From Pyrobaculum islandicum DSM 4184 (GTDB taxonomy: Archaea > Thermoproteota > Thermoprotei > Thermoproteales > Thermoproteaceae), in NCBI RefSeq assembly GCF_000015205.1, contig NC_008701.1, positions 871,436 to 935,435 on the forward strand: a stretch of DNA of 64,000 bases, given 5' to 3'. Numbering within the stretch: the first letter of the stretch is position 1; each line of letters starts with the position of its first letter. The notes under the pieces are model-generated. The model saw nothing but the letters and a program-made list of their open reading frames with translations, was not told where the DNA came from and made no database searches. The position numbers and the translations under genes were made by a program. Below are positions 2,266 through 61,614 of the stretch, piece by piece.

Positions 2266-3657
2266 ATGGTCTCTTTAAGGGCTATAGGAATTAGGAAGGT
2301 TTTCCCCGGTGTTATAGCACTAGACAACGTAGATTTTGAAGTTAAGAACGGCGAAGTCCATTGTCTCCTCGGCGAAAATGGAGCTGGAAAGTCCACTCTG
2401 TTGGCGATTCTCTATGGTGTGTACCTTCCCGATAGAGGTGAAATATATATTGACAATAGGAGAGTTGTTATAAAATCGCCACGTCACGCAACCGAGCTTG
2501 GAATTACGCTTATTTCTCAACACTTTGCGCTAGTGGAAACACTTACAGTAAGAGAAAACTTGAAATTGGCCGGCATAGACGTCTCAAAAGCTGAAAAAAT
2601 AAGCAAAGAATTTGGCATTGAAGTTCCTTTTGATAAATATATAGAAGAACTTACAGTTGGAGAGAGACAGAAAGTAGAAATAATTAAAGCGTTAGCTCGT
2701 AATAGCAAAATTCTGCTTATGGATGAGCCAACATCGCTCTTAAGCCCCAAGGAGACGAAAACGTTTCTGAAGACAATTAGGAAACTCGCCAACATGGGTA
2801 AAGCAGTTGTATTTGTGACTCATAAGATTAGAGAAGCTGTAGAAGTTGCAGATAGGATAACAGTCTTAAGAAGGGGGCAGAAGGTGGGAACATACGAAAA
2901 ACCGTTTGACGAAACGTCTCTTCTAGAAGCTATGTTTCAGGGTGTAGTAAAGAGGCGGTTGGATAAGCCGTCGGTCTCTGGTGAGGTGATATATAAAGCC
3001 GAAAGGCTGACAGGGGAGAAAGTACGTGAGGCCACAATAGAGTTAAGACGTGGCGAGCTTGTGGCTATTCTCGGCGTAGCAGGAAACGGACAAGAGGAGC
3101 TCATGGAGCTTCTCTCAGGGTTTAAAAAACCGAGGAGTGGAGACATATATATAGACGGAAGGAAGATAACTGGTATGCCGTTTTCGGAATTTCTAAAAAA
3201 TGGAATATCTTATCTACCTGAGGAGCGAAGTCGTGCATTAGCTAAAGACTTAAGTATACTAGATAATTTCAAAATTAGATGCATAGATCGTTGTATTGAA
3301 AAATTGTTAGAAGCAAAGGAGATTCTGGATATAGATTTTTCAGACCCTCATGCGAGGGCAGCTACATTATCCGGCGGCAACCAACAGAAGATGCTAATTG
3401 CGCGGGAGGTCTGGCTTAGGAGACCTTATATATTGGTAGCTTCATATCCTACACGTGGGCTTGACGTAGAAACGGCAGAAAAATTCTACTCATTTATAAG
3501 AGAGTATGTCAGAGGCGGCACAATTATAACTCTTGAAGATATAGAAGAGGCCGTGGAGAGAGCCGATAGAATTTACATAATCTCACGCGGCGAAATTGTT
3601 TCATCTTTCACGCCGCCCTTTGATATTGATGATATAGCTGAAGCCATGGCGACATGA
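2266..3657 (+). CDS. BMP/sugar-type ABC importer ATPase (two NBDs)
   Basis: This 463-aa protein has two tandem ABC domains, as in RbsA/YufO. The first NBD has a normal Walker A (GENGAGKST, residues 36-44), an LTVGERQ signature near 130 and Walker B ending MDEPTS. The second has a degenerate Walker A (LGVAGNGQEE), an LSGGNQQK signature and a Walker B lacking the catalytic Glu (ASYPTRG), which is the usual asymmetry of this family. It starts 3 bases after the binding-protein gene and overlaps the next permease by 4 bases. It powers import through the two permeases encoded downstream. Confidence 0.9.
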   Translation: MVSLRAIGIRKVFPGVIALDNVDFEVKNGEVHCLLGENGAGKSTLLAILYGVYLPDRGEIYIDNRRVVIKSPRHATELGITLISQHFALVETLTVRENLKLAGIDVSKAEKISKEFGIEVPFDKYIEELTVGERQKVEIIKALARNSKILLMDEPTSLLSPKETKTFLKTIRKLANMGKAVVFVTHKIREAVEVADRITVLRRGQKVGTYEKPFDETSLLEAMFQGVVKRRLDKPSVSGEVIYKAERLTGEKVREATIELRRGELVAILGVAGNGQEELMELLSGFKKPRSGDIYIDGRKITGMPFSEFLKNGISYLPEERSRALAKDLSILDNFKIRCIDRCIEKLLEAKEILDIDFSDPHARAATLSGGNQQKMLIAREVWLRRPYILVASYPTRGLDVETAEKFYSFIREYVRGGTIITLEDIEEAVERADRIYIISRGEIVSSFTPPFDIDDIAEAMAT

Positions 3658-20145: not shown

Positions 20146-20155
20146 TCCACTAGCT

Positions 20156-20197
20156 CCCCTTTTGTCACGCCGGCCTTCCCCGGGGAGCTCGGGACAT
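20156..20197 (-). repeat. Inverted 3'-end fragment of the GC-rich element
   Basis: Read on the minus strand this matches the last ~40 bases of the GC-rich element family: the CGAGCTCC..GGGGA hairpin, a GCCGG block and the terminal aaaaggggagc. It lies head-on to the longer plus-strand copy that follows, so both ends of the 20.15-20.38 kb block carry the element's 3' terminus pointing outward. Confidence 0.5.
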
Positions 20198-20376
20198 GTC
20201 CGGAGCCGTGGCCCCGGCCTTGGGGACCCGGCCGGTTGCTACATTTGACGCGCCCGTACGCCCGGGCACGGCCGTGCCCCTCTCGTCTCCGCCCCGCCCG
20301 TTAAGGGCGTCTGGCGGAGGCGGGCTAAACCCTTGCCCCCGGGAGAGGGCCGGGCGTTGCCGCTAAAAGGGGGCAC
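20198..20376 (+). ncRNA. Solo GC-rich structured element (omega-RNA-like, copy D)
   Basis: This copy has no tnpB beside it and lies between the two convergent moeA genes. It shares the landmarks of the family: CTTGGGGACCCGGCC near the start, a central hairpin (20287-20293 pairs with 20313-20319, inner stem 20295-20299 with 20305-20309), a GGGAGAGGGCC block and the terminal aaaaggggg. It is closest to the copy at 31.3 kb. Composition is far above the neighbouring genes in GC. Confidence 0.6.
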
Positions 20377-30849: not shown

Positions 30850-31215
30850 GTCTCTAGTTGGCTCGTACTGGAAGGGGCAACGCCGCCCGCGAGATCATAA
30901 AGCTGGCCAGAGAACGTCAAGCCGTGATCGTAGTAGACACAATGGAGGACGACACGTACCGAGAGTTGAAGGAGGGGAACGGAGAGAAGAAACACCTCTA
31001 CGACGGCCTCGGCCAGCTGAGGAGGCGCAGTGGTACGGCATTCCATATGTAGAGGTGCGACTCTACAGCACGGTCTGCCCCCGTTGTGGAGCCAAGATGG
31101 AAGAGGGGTCGCGTAATGCGTTGCCCCACCTGCGGCTTCTCGAACTATAGGGATCGGATCCCCTGTTGCGGACAAAGAGGAGGTGCCGGGAACTCCTCCA
31201 AGAGACAAAACAACC
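30850..31215 (+). pseudogene. tnpB C-terminal remnant (copy C)
   Basis: The segment encodes the RuvC-II region (VIVVDTMEDDTYRELKE) and KKHLYDGLGQLRRR. After a 16-base deletion and a frameshift come QWYGIPYVE and the first zinc knuckle CPRCGAKM, then further shifts through the second knuckle. The same 16-base deletion is in the copy at 32.9 kb. The N-terminal half is absent. The GC-rich element follows at 31275. Confidence 0.85.
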
Positions 31216-31274
31216 AGCTTTTTCCCCGTCCAGACAATCATCTTACTTTTAAACTCGTAAAACATTCCTTTCCA

Positions 31275-31432
31275 TGTACCAACCAGCCCTGGGGACCCGG
31301 CCGGCTGTTGAAGTCCGCCAAGCCCATCCGCCCGGACACGGCCAGACCCCCCACGTCCCGGGTTGCCCAGCGCGACTCGGGTGCGTGCCCCGAACTCCCC
31401 CGGGGGAGGGCCGACGCCATAAAAGGAGAGCC
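31275..31432 (+). ncRNA. GC-rich structured element after decayed tnpB (copy C)
   Basis: It lies directly downstream of the tnpB remnant, like copy A after the intact gene. Landmarks are CCCTGGGGACCCGG, a central hairpin with ten pairs (31357-31366 with 31372-31381, five-base loop), a CCCCCGGGGGAGGG hairpin and the terminal aaaaggagagcc. The bases of the central stem differ from copies A, B and D but pairing is kept. Confidence 0.6.
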
Positions 31433-32892: not shown

Positions 32893-33345
32893 ACGAGGAC
32901 AGGGATCGCGCAAGGCCCTCGACCTCCAGAGACAACTGTGGAAGCTTAAGACGAAGCGCTACGGCGTAATCCGCGAGGTCGTAGTAGACGCGACGCGTGA
33001 AGTCATAAAACTGGCGAGAGAGAGCCAAGCCGCGATCGTAGTAGACACGATGGGGACGAGACGTATTTGGCGAAGAAGCAAAGCGGCGAAAACGGCAGTA
33101 AGAAACACCTCTACGACGGCCTCGGCCAACTGAGGAGGCGCAGTGGTACGGCTTGCCCTATGTGGAGGAGCGGCGGTATTCAACAGTCTGTCCAAAGCGC
33201 GACGCAAAGGTGGTAGAGGAGAGGGGTCGCGTAATGCATTGCCCCGCCTGCGGCTTCAGAGCGCACCGCGACAACGCCCCCATGACATGGCGGAGAAGAG
33301 GTACTGGGGGCTACTCCAGAAACAACCCCCTCGGCGACCACCACC
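32893..33345 (+). pseudogene. tnpB C-terminal remnant (copy E)
   Basis: It encodes a region aligning with about residue 275 of the intact TnpB onward (ATREVIKLARESQAAIVVDTM), then frameshifts. KKHLYDGLGQLRRR is followed by the same 16-base deletion as copy C, then QWYGLPYVEERR, one damaged zinc knuckle (CPKRDAK) and a preserved second one (CPACGFRAHRDN). The gene is clearly dead. A degenerate GC-rich element follows. Confidence 0.85.
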
Positions 33346-33369
33346 TAACCCCCCAACTACACCTCCCAC

Positions 33370-33508
33370 ATGAACAACGCCGGCCCCAGGCGGCAGACAA
33401 AGAAAATCGACGACCTACGGCCACATAAGACCCACCCCCCGCCCCGGCACACCCAAAACAGACCCCCAAGCCCCCCGGGAAGGGCCAAGAAAGAGTTAAG
33501 GGGGACGC
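33370..33508 (+). ncRNA. Degenerate GC-rich element after decayed tnpB (copy E)
   Basis: It begins with GCCGGCCCCAGGCGG, comparable with the family's CCGGCCCTGGGGC. It ends with the CCCCCCGGGAAGGGCC hairpin and a terminal ttaagggggacgc, but the central covarying hairpin is eroded. It is probably no longer functional. Its end overlaps the last codons of the TrmB-like gene on the other strand. Confidence 0.45.
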
Positions 33509-34227
33509 AAACTAGAGGCCTTTTGCCATACGTGGATAAAGTAAGTACGTGCTATTTCTATCATAAAGCGGTCATTTGAATACGCACCAGATATTTCTCC
33601 GCTGTATTTAACATAAATTACGACAGCTCCCCCTATCGCGCCACCGCCGAACATCTCAGCTACTGTCTTAACTTCAACGCGTGGAGGGAGGTTAAGCCTA
33701 TGTATAAGCTCTTCTGTAACAAGCATTTTTATTGGTATACGTTTTGACTCTTCTATAAGCGTATCTACTATCTGTGGCGTAATTAACTCTGGAAATGGAA
33801 ATGCGAGATAAGCCACATCTTCTGAAGACTTCAAAATCTCTACTATAAGCTCGCCCACTCTATCAGAGCCGCGGACTAGAGTTAGAAAAGTTGGAGCTGT
33901 TGCATATCGGCTTTCGTAAATTGTTTGGAGATTATCAAATATTGGCTTTAAAGTTTTTAACGTTACTGAAAGTATATTAACAAGAGATCTATATATATCT
34001 ATAGGTGGAGAAGCTTTAAATTTTACAGGACGAGATTTCTCATTTCGTGTAATAAATCCTAACTTAATAAGTTTATCAAGGTATATATAAGTCTTTGTAT
34101 ACGGAATTTTTAAAATATCTGCAATATCTCTAGCAGTAAGCTCTCCTTTTTCTACAAGCGTTATATATATGTCTATCTCTCTCTGGCCAAGTCCTAAAAG
34201 TTTAGACACTTTCTTTAACTGCTCCAC
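33496..34227 (-). CDS. TrmB-family transcription regulator
   Basis: The 243-aa protein has an N-terminal winged helix (LGLGQREIDIYITLVEKGELTAR, quoted in part, and KIPYTKTYIYLDKLIKLGF) and a C-terminal TrmB-type phospholipase-D-like effector domain. TrmB proteins repress or activate sugar and central-metabolism genes in response to sugars. It is divergent from the radical SAM gene and may control it or itself. The C-terminal codons run into the degenerate GC-rich element and may have been altered by the insertion. Confidence 0.85.
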   Translation of the reverse strand: MEQLKKVSKLLGLGQREIDIYITLVEKGELTARDIADILKIPYTKTYIYLDKLIKLGFITRNEKSRPVKFKASPPIDIYRSLVNILSVTLKTLKPIFDNLQTIYESRYATAPTFLTLVRGSDRVGELIVEILKSSEDVAYLAFPFPELITPQIVDTLIEESKRIPIKMLVTEELIHRLNLPPRVEVKTVAEMFGGGAIGGAVVIYVKYSGEISGAYSNDRFMIEIARTYFIHVWQKASSLRPP

Positions 34228-36082: not shown

Positions 36083-36262
36083 GGCCCCCCTTTTGCGGCT
36101 CCCGGCCCTCTCCGGGAGGGCTCGGGGCCCGCCCGCGGAGACGCCTTTTGGGCGACCGCGGGCGAGGGGGCTCGGGTCGTTGGGGGCTGGCTGTGCCCCC
36201 TGGTCGCCGGGCCCCCAGACCGGGGATTTCGTGTCCTGAAGCGGAGGATACATGCGCTAGGT
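36083..36262 (-). ncRNA. Solo GC-rich structured element (omega-RNA-like, copy B)
   Basis: Read on the minus strand it matches copy A nearly throughout, including remains of the last tnpB codons (a short LT-stop) at its 5' end near 36259. Hairpin 2 pairs 36182-36187 with 36195-36200 around the conserved loop ACAGCCA. Hairpin 3 pairs 36131-36138 with 36156-36163 perfectly, although its bases differ from copy A. The element ends near 36083 (aaaaggggggcc). No tnpB body is present. It fills the gap between two convergent genes. Confidence 0.7.
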
Positions 36263-58730: not shown

Positions 58731-59004
58731 TGTTGTACAGCTTCTTGGCCCATACTATGGGGATGTTGTCTCTGTTGTCTGAGAAGCCGCATGTTAGACA
58801 ACGCATAATACGGTTCTTCTCCTCAACCATCTTAGCTCCACAACGGGGGCAGACGGTTGAATGCAACCTCTCTTCTAGATACGGAATGCCGTACCATTGC
58901 GCCAATTCCTTCAACTTACGCACCGCTAGGTCGAGGACGTTTGCTCGCTCCTTGACAAGTCTGTGAGGTAGTCTGATCTTCAACGTCCTGTAGACTTGGT
59001 TCAT
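58714..59004 (-). CDS. Mini-TnpB with in-frame internal deletion
   Basis: The 96-aa reading frame joins the TnpB N terminus (VYRTLKIRLPHRLVKERANVL, quoted in part) directly to the C-terminal zinc finger (QWYGIPYLEERL, CPRCGAKM, CLTCGFSDNRDN). Compared with the intact TnpB at 60025, residues about 30-345 are gone, including RuvC-I and RuvC-II, yet the frame is open. The leader before the ATG is conserved with two other tnpB copies. No GC-rich element follows; the end is inside ilvA. It could be a dead remnant or a zinc-finger peptide. Confidence 0.75.
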   Translation of the reverse strand: MNQVYRTLKIRLPHRLVKERANVLDLAVRKLKELAQWYGIPYLEERLHSTVCPRCGAKMVEEKNRIMRCLTCGFSDNRDNIPIVWAKKLYNIKPLL

Positions 59005-59047: not shown

Positions 59048-59499
59048 ATTGAGATTGTCCTCTCATATACTTGCGACACACTATGGACGTTGGTCGTCGA
59101 GTTTGAGAAAAAACAGTTATCTCTCAAGTAAGCAGTGATGGTTAGTATCCGCCCGGCGGCGTTTGTGATGCATATGGCGGTTTCCATTGGCGTGAGGGAT
59201 TCAAGTTTCATAAACATGGCGATTACGGCGGCGGCCGTAGCAGACATGCCACGTACATACAGCGTAATTACATCACATGGGTCGTCGAGACCCTGTCTGG
59301 GATCTATAAACGATATGAGAATTGCTACACCGAGGCCGGACAGAAGTGTGTCAAGTACCGCGATGTATATAGAAGCAAAGTCATGCGCCTGAAGCTTAGC
59401 CGCCGCGCCGGTAGTCGCGGCGTAAATAACGGGCGAAAACAACACAATGTCGCTGATGATGACAGCGGCGAGTCCAACCGCAAGCAACCGTACGCCCAT
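59032..59499 (-). CDS. Small membrane protein next to tnpB
   Basis: From the ATG at 59499 (MGVRLLAVGLAAVII) the protein is about 155 aa with three to four hydrophobic segments and a Cys-containing C-terminal half (CDVITLYVRG, AICITNAAGRI). A longer GTG start at 59553 is possible. Its last codons lie in the conserved leader of the mini-tnpB; a similar tail remains near 30340. No family recognised. It may belong to the mobile element or just flank it. Confidence 0.5.
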   Translation of the reverse strand: MGVRLLAVGLAAVIISDIVLFSPVIYAATTGAAAKLQAHDFASIYIAVLDTLLSGLGVAILISFIDPRQGLDDPCDVITLYVRGMSATAAAVIAMFMKLESLTPMETAICITNAAGRILTITAYLRDNCFFSNSTTNVHSVSQVYERTISIRPPN

Positions 59500-59554
59500 G
59501 TCCCACCCACCACAGATGTGAAAAGTCAGAAACACTCTTTCAACTCCTTTCACA

Positions 59555-59587
59555 CACCTGCCTGACAGCGACGTCGTCAGGCAGGTG
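59555..59587. repeat. Perfect 12-bp inverted repeat
   Basis: The sequence cacctgcctgac (59555-59566) is repeated perfectly inverted at 59576-59587, with a 9-base loop holding the palindrome GACGTC. It lies upstream of the membrane-protein gene. It could be an operator, a terminator-like hairpin or a transposon end signal. Confidence 0.6.
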
Positions 59588-60024
59588 AACCGAGGTAGTA
59601 GAAAGAGGTGTGCGGGGTTGGCGGAAGACGTGGTGGGCGTTGAAAAAGGGGCTAGGGTTTTAGGAGGTAGGAGACGAGGCGGTGGGGGCGTAGATAAGGC
59701 CGTAGAGCTCTTGGACGTGTGGCGGCTTGGCTCTTATCGTTATTTCCGGGTATTCCGGAGGTTTTGCATATAGGAGTACGGCCGTAGTTATATCAGCCCT
59801 GAAGTGGACGTAGAGCCCCTCTGGCCGGCTCTCGGTAATCGTGGCGACTATGGTCAACACCGCCGCGTATGTCGCAGTCCCGGGGGAGGGGTCGGTGTTT
59901 CGCCAGCTCTGAGGAGAGGCGGGGCACAACGTCGGGGCCGTGGGTTTGTCTTGTGAAACTTTTGGCTTGCCCCCGTGTGTCTTCTATAACCAACAGAGAT
60001 TTCAGCCCCACCACATATACACAC
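59588..60024. other. Gap upstream of intact tnpB
   Basis: A minus-strand frame (59660-59929, 89 codons) reads like protein in its last 60 residues (EGLYVHFRADITTAVLLYA) but has no family match I recognise and no good start. The last ~40 bases before 60025 match the tnpB leader. Nothing else is supported. Confidence 0.4.
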
Positions 60025-61275
60025 ATGTACGTATACAGAACGCTGAGGATAGAGATACCTTGGCGCCTTGTCGAAGAGAGACCGGACGTCCTCGGCCTCG
60101 CCGTAAGGATGCGCCTAGCGGTGGAGGAGTACGCCAGAAGGCTGTTAAAGGAGTTGACGGGGCAAGAGGAGCCCAAGCTCGCGCCGGAGGAGCTTGTCTG
60201 CTTGCTTACTCCCGACAGACGGGAGCTGGCACGGCGGATTATCGAGGAGGTGTTTCCCAAGTACGGACTTAAGAGATATATCGCAGAGTGGGCTAAGTTC
60301 TTCTGGCGCGACGTAGTGTTCCACAGGGCGGTTCCGCTCAACGCCCAACTTAGAGTTGGGAACGAAAGAGACATAAGTATGGCGGTCTTTGTCGACCTAA
60401 AGAGCGGTATTGTTAGAGTAAGAAAACTCGGCATACCGCCTTTCGCCGTCGAGTTGAAGAAGAACAACATAGTTTGGATAAGGGAGAGACTAGAAGAGGG
60501 CGCCAAATTGAAGTTGGCGTTCCTCGGCATAGAGAGACAGAGGGGCAAGGAGCCGACCTACGGCAAGCTCTACGTCGCCCTCGTCTTCGCCCGCGAAGTT
60601 CAACAGATAAAGCCCAGGGCCGTTGTTGTCGTTGACGTGAACCGTCTCGACAACGGCGTCACGGCGGGTCTCCTCGTGGATGGAAAACTGAGACAGACGT
60701 TGAGACTTCCCGACGAGAGCGCGGTAAGAGAACTGAGGAGACTCCACGAGGAGATAAGCCGTCTTGACGGAAAAGCCGCTAGGGAGGCGGATCCCGTCAG
60801 AAGGAGACGTCTCGAAGACAGAGCACGTTATCTCGCGTCTAAGCGGTTTAGGAAGATAAGGGGCATTGTGGCGCATATCGCTAGAGAAATAATCGAGCTC
60901 GCCAAGACGTACAGCGCCGCCGTCGTGGTGGACACAATGGAGGACGAAACATATCGAGAGCTCAAAGAAAGGAACAGTAGCGGAGTGAAGAAACACTTTC
61001 TAGACGGGTTGGGCCAACTGAGGAGGCGCCTACAACACTTGGCACAGTGGTACGGCTTGCCGTATTTGGAGGAGCGGCTGTATTCGACCATCTGCCCCCG
61101 CTGTGGCGCGAAGATGAAAGAGCTGAATAACAGGCGAATGCGGTGTCCCGTCTGCGGCTTCAACAACAACCGAGACAACGTGCCGCTGATATGGGCAAAG
61201 AGAAGGTACTGGGAAATCCTCCAAAAGACAAAACAACCCGCTTTTTCAGCGACCACCACACTTTTAACCTCGTAA
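60025..61275 (+). CDS. tnpB: TnpB RNA-guided nuclease-family protein (IS605/IS1341 type)
   Basis: From the ATG at 60025 the protein is 416 aa (an in-frame start 52 codons earlier is unlikely, since other copies begin at VYRTL). RuvC-I Asp204 (VVVDVNR), RuvC-III Asp384 (NNNRDN) and a zinc finger (Cys357, 360, 374, 377) are present. At RuvC-II, where TnpB has Glu in VxxE, this reads VVVDTMED (Asp303, Glu306). TnpB proteins cut DNA guided by an RNA from the element's 3' end. No tnpA lies nearby. A GC-rich structured element follows the stop. Confidence 0.9.
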   Translation: MYVYRTLRIEIPWRLVEERPDVLGLAVRMRLAVEEYARRLLKELTGQEEPKLAPEELVCLLTPDRRELARRIIEEVFPKYGLKRYIAEWAKFFWRDVVFHRAVPLNAQLRVGNERDISMAVFVDLKSGIVRVRKLGIPPFAVELKKNNIVWIRERLEEGAKLKLAFLGIERQRGKEPTYGKLYVALVFAREVQQIKPRAVVVVDVNRLDNGVTAGLLVDGKLRQTLRLPDESAVRELRRLHEEISRLDGKAAREADPVRRRRLEDRARYLASKRFRKIRGIVAHIAREIIELAKTYSAAVVVDTMEDETYRELKERNSSGVKKHFLDGLGQLRRRLQHLAQWYGLPYLEERLYSTICPRCGAKMKELNNRRMRCPVCGFNNNRDNVPLIWAKRRYWEILQKTKQPAFSATTTLLTS

Positions 61276-61439
61276 GTCTCCTCATTTCATGAGCCACATC
61301 CCCGGCCCTGGGGCCCGGCGACCAAGGGGGGCAAAGCCAGCCCCCTATGACCCGAGCCCTCTCGTCTGGGGTTGCCGAAAGGCGGCCCCGGACGGGCCCC
61401 GAGCTCCCCCGGGGAGGCCGGGAGCCGCAAAGGGGAGCC
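61276..61439 (+). ncRNA. Putative omega-RNA / right end of intact tnpB element (copy A)
   Basis: It begins at the tnpB stop. Hairpin 2 (61325-61346) has the loop AAAGCCA. Hairpin 3 pairs 61364-61376 with 61381-61393 (13 pairs, GAAA tetraloop). Hairpin 4 is at 61404-61416. The end is gcaaaggggagcc. Position right after tnpB, structure and recurrence after other tnpB copies match the omega-RNA scaffold; the guide would then be the bases from about 61440. The omega-RNA often includes the end of the tnpB coding sequence. Confidence 0.65.
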
Positions 61440-61614
61440 AAACAGGGTAGAAACCAAAGACGTGTATATCGCCACTTCCACATTTTTGTCAACATGCCAT
61501 CTGTCTCATGGACAAGAGGACGTAACCGGCGTTGGTATCGTCTACCTTCGCTTGACCTGAGAGTCCTTTTGTCCTAAAGAAAGGGCTCTCGTGTAACTGT
61601 CTGAAACTTGATGT

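Follow-up and report, generated by a model that had tools for sequence, protein, structure and literature searches.

The GC-rich element that follows an intact tnpB gene in Pyrobaculum islandicum DSM 4184 is very probably the omega-RNA (reRNA) belonging to a tnpB-only mobile element whose copies have proliferated in this genome. The window, that is, the whole 64-kb stretch of DNA that was analysed, comprises bases 871436-935435 of the complete 1,826,402-base genome. The initial annotation had put the element forward as a candidate omega-RNA, and this proposal is supported by a link to tnpB, co-distribution with one TnpB subfamily, a covarying pseudoknot next to the expected guide, and an element boundary read from an empty site. 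The features shared with omega-RNAs are a location on the tnpB strand, at the 3' end of the gene and the right end of the element, a scaffold that ends at the boundary, the guide-proximal pseudoknot, and a covarying structure that is weaker in the B-type copies. Position, boundary, fold, pseudoknot covariation, co-distribution, and insertion polymorphism were all computed here.

Five copies had been claimed in the window, and five places were matched by covariance models. The copies belong to two related types, A (20153, 31249, 36085, and 61264) and B (33362):

20153-20374, both strands (minus 20154-20268, plus 20203-20374): 222-bp element with an inverted RNA end on each side, without tnpB
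31249-31430, plus strand: A-type RNA copy behind a decayed tnpB (30879-31169); covariance model and feature map
33362-33509, plus strand: B-type RNA copy behind a decayed tnpB (32906-33322); B-type covariance model and feature map
36085-36250, minus strand: A-type RNA copy without tnpB, missing in the related genome G004; covariance model and genome comparison
59869-61275, plus strand: intact tnpB, 468-aa open reading frame with RuvC and TNB zinc finger; Pfam, NCBIfam, and AlphaFold2/Foldseek
61264-61438, plus strand: GC-rich structured RNA, candidate omega-RNA, from the end of tnpB to the element's right end; scaffold core 61298-61438

The covariance models were built from family copies mostly outside the window; the copies at 36085 and 61298 were among the ten model sequences, and their scores of 128.8 bits (36085-36227, minus strand, E 2e-26) and 127.6 bits (61298-61438, plus strand) are to be read as those of sequences within the model. 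The plus-strand matches at 20210-20373, 31281-31430, and 33378-33509 scored 27.7, 23.8, and 23.2 bits, respectively, the last with the B-type model. The copy reported at 20198 exists, but it is not a single copy: it is the 222-bp element with an RNA 3' end on each side, the inverted second end of which matches at 20154-20268 on the minus strand (27.2 bits). Three copies had been described as lying directly behind tnpB, and those at 31249, 33362, and 61264 indeed follow a decayed, a decayed, and an intact gene. The common start, the A(A/C)AGCCA hairpin loop (61333-61339), and the aaaagggg-type end were likewise all found. At gathering thresholds, Rfam gave no match anywhere in the 64-kb window, including for the sotRNA families RF02656 and RF02657.

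The conserved part of the protein encoded by the intact gene starts at 60025 (MYVYRTL...) and spans 416 aa. It matches Pfam PF07282 (E 6e-9) and the NCBIfam model guided_TnpB (E 6e-19, below the curated cut-off), and its AlphaFold2 model (pLDDT 82.6) matches Cas12f/TnpB structures in Foldseek (E 1.6e-11). Profile, alignment, and predicted structure thus all place a RuvC-TNB fold and a four-cysteine zinc finger in this TnpB. The RuvC triad consists of D204, D303, and D384 (numbering from 60025) instead of the canonical D-E-D, since D303 occupies, in the alignment, the position of the Glu in another TnpB family encoded by this genome. An Asp at this RuvC-II position is invariant in 19 of 19 aligned clade members, including homologues of 37-40% identity from other Thermoproteaceae; judging from the alignment, DNA cleavage is not assured. 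When GTDB genomes were scanned for the wider TnpB clade, all records returned were from Thermoproteaceae.

This substitution raises the question of whether TnpB and its RNA form a non-cutting pair, in which the RuvC-II Asp would belong to a guided repressor (TldR-like or Cas12m-like) and solo RNAs would act as extra guides in trans. Such a repressor would use the same omega-RNA and is thus compatible with the omega-RNA explanation. The invariance of D303 opposite the Glu of the other TnpBs is consistent with it, as are the solo RNAs that retain an intact fold (for instance at 1795243, with 168 bits in the covariance model) and the precedent of Cas12m2, which has an H-D-D triad and binds DNA without cutting it (PMC10442227). 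However, Asp is still an acidic metal ligand with which cutting is possible, the copies are dispersed and decaying in the manner of a transposon, and, apart from a few matches of 14-17 nt, no second targets of the guides were seen in the approximately 425 kb covered. A repressor role is therefore considered unlikely.

The association of the omega-RNA candidate with tnpB extends over the whole genome. Searches with the window TnpB (tblastn) revealed about 20 near-full-length tnpB copies and more than 100 fragments, and blastn with the RNA copy behind the intact tnpB matched about 50 places, far above chance. Whole-genome covariance searches gave 40 (B model) and 44 (A model) matches, partly at the same places. 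In all near-full-length tnpB copies of the family (20 copies read), the RNA lies directly 3' of the stop codon and terminates in AAAGGGGGC, AAAGGGGAGC, ATAGGGGGAC, or close variants, and the sequences beyond these 3' ends have nothing in common between copies. When two profiles were applied to fetched stretches, 54 of 81 RNA copies, and 50 of the 63 full ones, were found directly behind tnpB or its remains, fractions that are biased upward because the stretches had been selected for the presence of tnpB or RNA hits. A 3'-end profile search of the same stretches gave 102 RNA ends, about 60 of them with tnpB, which is likewise not a census; ends without tnpB make up about 40% of the approximately 100 in 1.83 Mb.

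The 27 of 81 copies (fetched stretches) that are not behind tnpB would be expected of a generic GC-rich repeat, or of a transcription terminator, located at tnpB 3' ends by chance. However, in those solo copies that were inspected by eye, the final 30-60 nt of tnpB are usually retained, so that they look like shortened elements. The boundary is sharp and the fold covaries, and the nine genomes without this TnpB subfamily yielded no B-model match and one marginal A-model match. A chance association is thus extremely improbable.

The last of these points comes from a covariance-model search of Pyrobaculum genomes, which the initial annotation had suggested as a check. Eleven genomes were searched with the A and B models. 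The B model matched only P. islandicum (40) and G004 (4), a 1,769,823-base genome that we take to be P. neutrophilum; the A model matched P. islandicum (44) and G004 (5), and gave one marginal match in a further genome, G009 (E 8e-4). Similarly, the TnpB subfamily at at least 65% identity is present only in P. islandicum and G004, the others having TnpBs of about 33-46% identity or no TnpB. The RNA is clearly found in only two of the 11 Pyrobaculum genomes, and both carry the TnpB subfamily. Together with the 54 of 81 copies behind tnpB in the upward-biased sample, this co-distribution indicates that the element does not occur mostly away from tnpB. Additionally, two distant TnpB genes (L128 and L220) end, by eye, in a similar loop and terminus design, CAGCCCCCGGAG ... 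GAAGGGGGGC.

Comparison of the two genomes that carry the RNA, which are 92-95% identical in the region compared, also defines where the element ends. P. islandicum 1331553-1333416 is missing from the matching region of G004. The right junction reads ...GAAGGGGAGC|TATGACGTTGATC in P. islandicum, with a flank that starts TATGACG, and ...GCCGCCGGCA|TATGACGTTGATC in G004. Because the junction of the empty site falls at this point, the insertion ends, by genome comparison, at the RNA 3' end, and a guide would have to come from the flank. This supports the earlier proposal that the guide would start right after the common end, and gives for the window copy:

61439-61454, plus strand: expected guide, CAAACAGGGTAGAAAC, placed from the boundary, with an assumed length of 16 nt taken from ISDra2 TnpB (PMC8612924)

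The left junction of the same insertion lies inside the element's leader and not at a recognised left end; this is the one empty site fixed to the base on both sides. The sequence before the target is ...GCCGCCGGCA at this site and ...CGCCGCGGCC at a second site, which has an adjoining deletion, and two sites do not allow a TAM to be defined. Two window copies also vary between genomes. The interval that holds the copy at 20153 measures 39-124 bp in four other Pyrobaculum species versus 309 bp in P. islandicum, and the copy at 36085 is missing from G004. These two copies are therefore polymorphic insertions, as known from interval comparison rather than from base-exact junctions.

Several other loci show how varied the insertions and their surroundings are. 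In place of the unit at 1319382-1322250 (L147), an unrelated 2.27-kb sequence is found in G004 that by eye is nad (NAD synthesis)-like, and either the arrival of the unit or a later loss would have removed nad-like genes at that place. One G004 unit has an RNA end on both sides (L133, 1738-1922 minus and 3270-3443 plus), and its plus-side flank is 98% identical to the flank of the P. islandicum copy at 395408. Insertions lie directly behind tRNA genes in L058 and L078, and at 558257 the right flank repeats the CACCA(AA) of the tRNA 3' end.

The RNA family, with a GC content of about 77%, comprises three subtypes (A1, A2, and B) with one shared fold, which consists in order of a closing helix (H0), an inner helix with its hairpin, a central hairpin, and a last hairpin. 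A single consensus for all A-type copies (MAFFT/RNAalifold) was poor, with 13 pairs, because the subtypes differ in whole helices, and it was discarded in favour of the three separate ones. Of 200 dinucleotide shuffles of the 61298-61438 sequence, 199 fold less well than the original (z -3.15). The following segments were assigned in this window copy:

61301-61307, plus strand: H0 5' strand CCCGGCC, which pairs with GGCCGGG at 61416-61422
61403-61409, plus strand: hairpin-loop segment GCTCCCC, the pseudoknot 5' strand, complementary to the terminus
61432-61438, plus strand: terminal motif GGGGAGC at the right end, the pseudoknot 3' strand; covariation, and the equivalent junction from another copy's empty site

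The last 6-7 nt of the RNA pair with the upstream hairpin loop and covary with it, in three matched forms: GCUCCCC/GGGGAGC, GCCCCC/GGGGGC, and GUCCCCC/GGGGGAC. Because the 3' strand of H0 lies between loop and terminus, this pairing is a pseudoknot. Of 76 copies, 46 have a terminus that is fully complementary to their own loop, whereas shuffling the ends among copies gives 21.9 +/- 3.2; within type A, the figures are 24 of 44 and 13.6 +/- 2.3. Since the copies are related by descent, these counts should not be taken as true probabilities. Both sides are changed in 13 of the 43 pairs of the A2 subtype (8.1 when shuffled), and its covariation score is 0.162 compared to 0.093 for the shuffles (0 of 500 reach it) and a maximum of 0.092 when slid. 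The B-type helices vary little, and their doubly changed pairs are not above chance (297 of 500 shuffles). Additionally, G-U pairs exceed A-C pairs by 121 to 74, which favours the tnpB-sense strand of the element as the RNA strand. At L084 1555-1733 and L056 1048-1217, about 30 nt of the RNA 5' hairpin seem to be inverted in place.

Palindromic blocks at element ends could also be mere DNA transposition ends, bound by a transposase and folded as DNA hairpins without any RNA function. The block does lie exactly at the element's right end, it is rich in palindromes, its reverse complement also folds well (-85 versus -91 kcal/mol), and inverted ends occur in some copies that lack tnpB. However, a length of about 140 nt with several covarying helices, a pseudoknot that joins the end to an internal loop, the G-U over A-C excess on the tnpB-sense strand, and the match to known omega-RNA architecture all point to an RNA. 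A role as a DNA end alone thus seems highly unlikely, and the roles as DNA end and as RNA are compatible, not exclusive.

The omega-RNA candidate sits in elements with a distinctive layout. Where two tnpB copies or fragments lie within 1.2 kb of each other (31 neighbouring pairs), the arrangement is head-to-head in 23, tandem in 5, and convergent in 3. The intact window copy is also one of such a pair:

58735-59001, minus strand: decayed partner tnpB, head-to-head with the intact copy
59555-59587, no strand assigned: palindrome CACCTGCCTGACAGCGACGTCGTCAGGCAGGTG between the divergent tnpB copies; pattern search and feature map

The palindrome, CACCTGCCTGAC...GTCAGGCAGGTG, has 15 exact copies in the genome by pattern, compared to 0 for a reversed-pattern control. 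The copies adjoin tnpB or its remains (feature map) and are flanked by leaders of unequal length, one long and one short. Beyond some of them, a non-tnpB gene has a similar leader (L054, 237915; L059, 587571; L075, 1285240), as if the control region served host genes. By eye, small hydrophobic reading frames (e.g. MGVRLLAVGLAAVIISDIVLFSPVIYAATTG) begin next to the palindrome, in the window at about 59350-59554 on the minus strand and in similar leaders elsewhere.

RNA is present at both outer ends in a few units, and not in most. An interpretation of the RNA ends as conventional terminal inverted repeats that duplicate their target was rejected: an inverted partner lies within 6 kb of about one quarter of the 102 ends, and target duplication is absent in four two-ended units. 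The central palindrome was also rejected as a general left end, as the resolved insertion reaches approximately 340 bp beyond it. No Y1 transposase TnpA was detected in the genome (PF01797, E <= 0.001), while the same search was positive in 5 of 14 control genomes. Similarly, no IS607-type serine recombinase with an N-terminal HTH lies beside tnpB; the one serine recombinase in the genome (718980) has an N-terminal catalytic domain and is outside the tnpB copies. As a tentative model, which we regard as rather doubtful, the elements may be twin mobile units, in which a divergent tnpB pair with D-D-D RuvC surrounds a shared palindromic control region and has an omega-RNA at each outer end. Guides from both flanks would then target the empty site from both sides, and internally deleted, RNA-only units would rely on TnpB in trans.

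In the omega-RNA reading, the last part of the tnpB transcript would give rise to the RNA. Its scaffold would extend from about the tnpB stop codon to the element's right end, a guide derived from the flank would come next, and the RNA would presumably be released by processing. The closing helix H0 would enclose three hairpins, and the last 6-7 nt before the guide would join the loop of the last hairpin in a pseudoknot of the kind held by TnpB and Cas12 proteins. TnpB and the RNA may then recognise the flank sequence in DNA that lacks the element, and thereby keep the element in place.

These results describe, in searchable form, an omega-RNA family from hyperthermophilic Thermoproteales, for which Rfam yields no match in this window, and a TnpB clade with a Glu to Asp change and about 100 RNA-bearing loci in 1.83 Mb, without a recognised transposase for the element. 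The movement of tnpB-only elements, the action of solo omega-RNAs in trans, and cutting by a D-D-D TnpB thus become testable, and a hyperthermophilic TnpB with a base-defined candidate RNA is a practical start for biochemistry.

The type of RNA is already known, whereas the family, its copy number, and the paired gene layout look unusual. The ISDra2 omega-RNA derives from the tnpB 3' end and the right end, and its guide consists of about 16 nt of flanking sequence (PMC8612924); a pseudoknot immediately precedes this guide (PMC10097598). The Pyrobaculum RNA resembles it in origin, in a scaffold of about 115-140 nt that ends at the boundary, in a pseudoknot just before the guide, and, probably, in a guide taken from the flank. 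In contrast to ISDra2, in which the pseudoknot has 3 pairs plus non-canonical ones, that of Pyrobaculum has 6-7 G-C-rich pairs between the terminus and the last hairpin loop; the RNA has a GC content of about 77%, the RuvC triad is D-D-D and not D-E-D, and a Y1 TnpA was not found in the genome. In halobacterial omega-RNAs, a hairpin loop pairs with a terminal transposon-encoded motif (PMC12558985). The halobacterial sotRNAs and omega-RNAs (RF02656 and RF02657) are likewise archaeal RNAs at tnpB 3' ends with a loop and terminal-motif pseudoknot, although the Pyrobaculum window has no Rfam match at the gathering threshold. As with Cas12m2 and nuclease-dead TnpB relatives, the RuvC triad is non-canonical with Asp at the second position, but unlike Cas12m2, which is H-D-D and CRISPR-associated, the Pyrobaculum TnpB keeps the first Asp and is encoded in a mobile element. 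Finally, the tnpB without tnpA is reminiscent of IS1341-type (tnpB-only IS200/IS605) elements, from which the Pyrobaculum elements differ in that tnpB occurs in head-to-head pairs around a shared palindrome, each gene with an RNA at its outer end.
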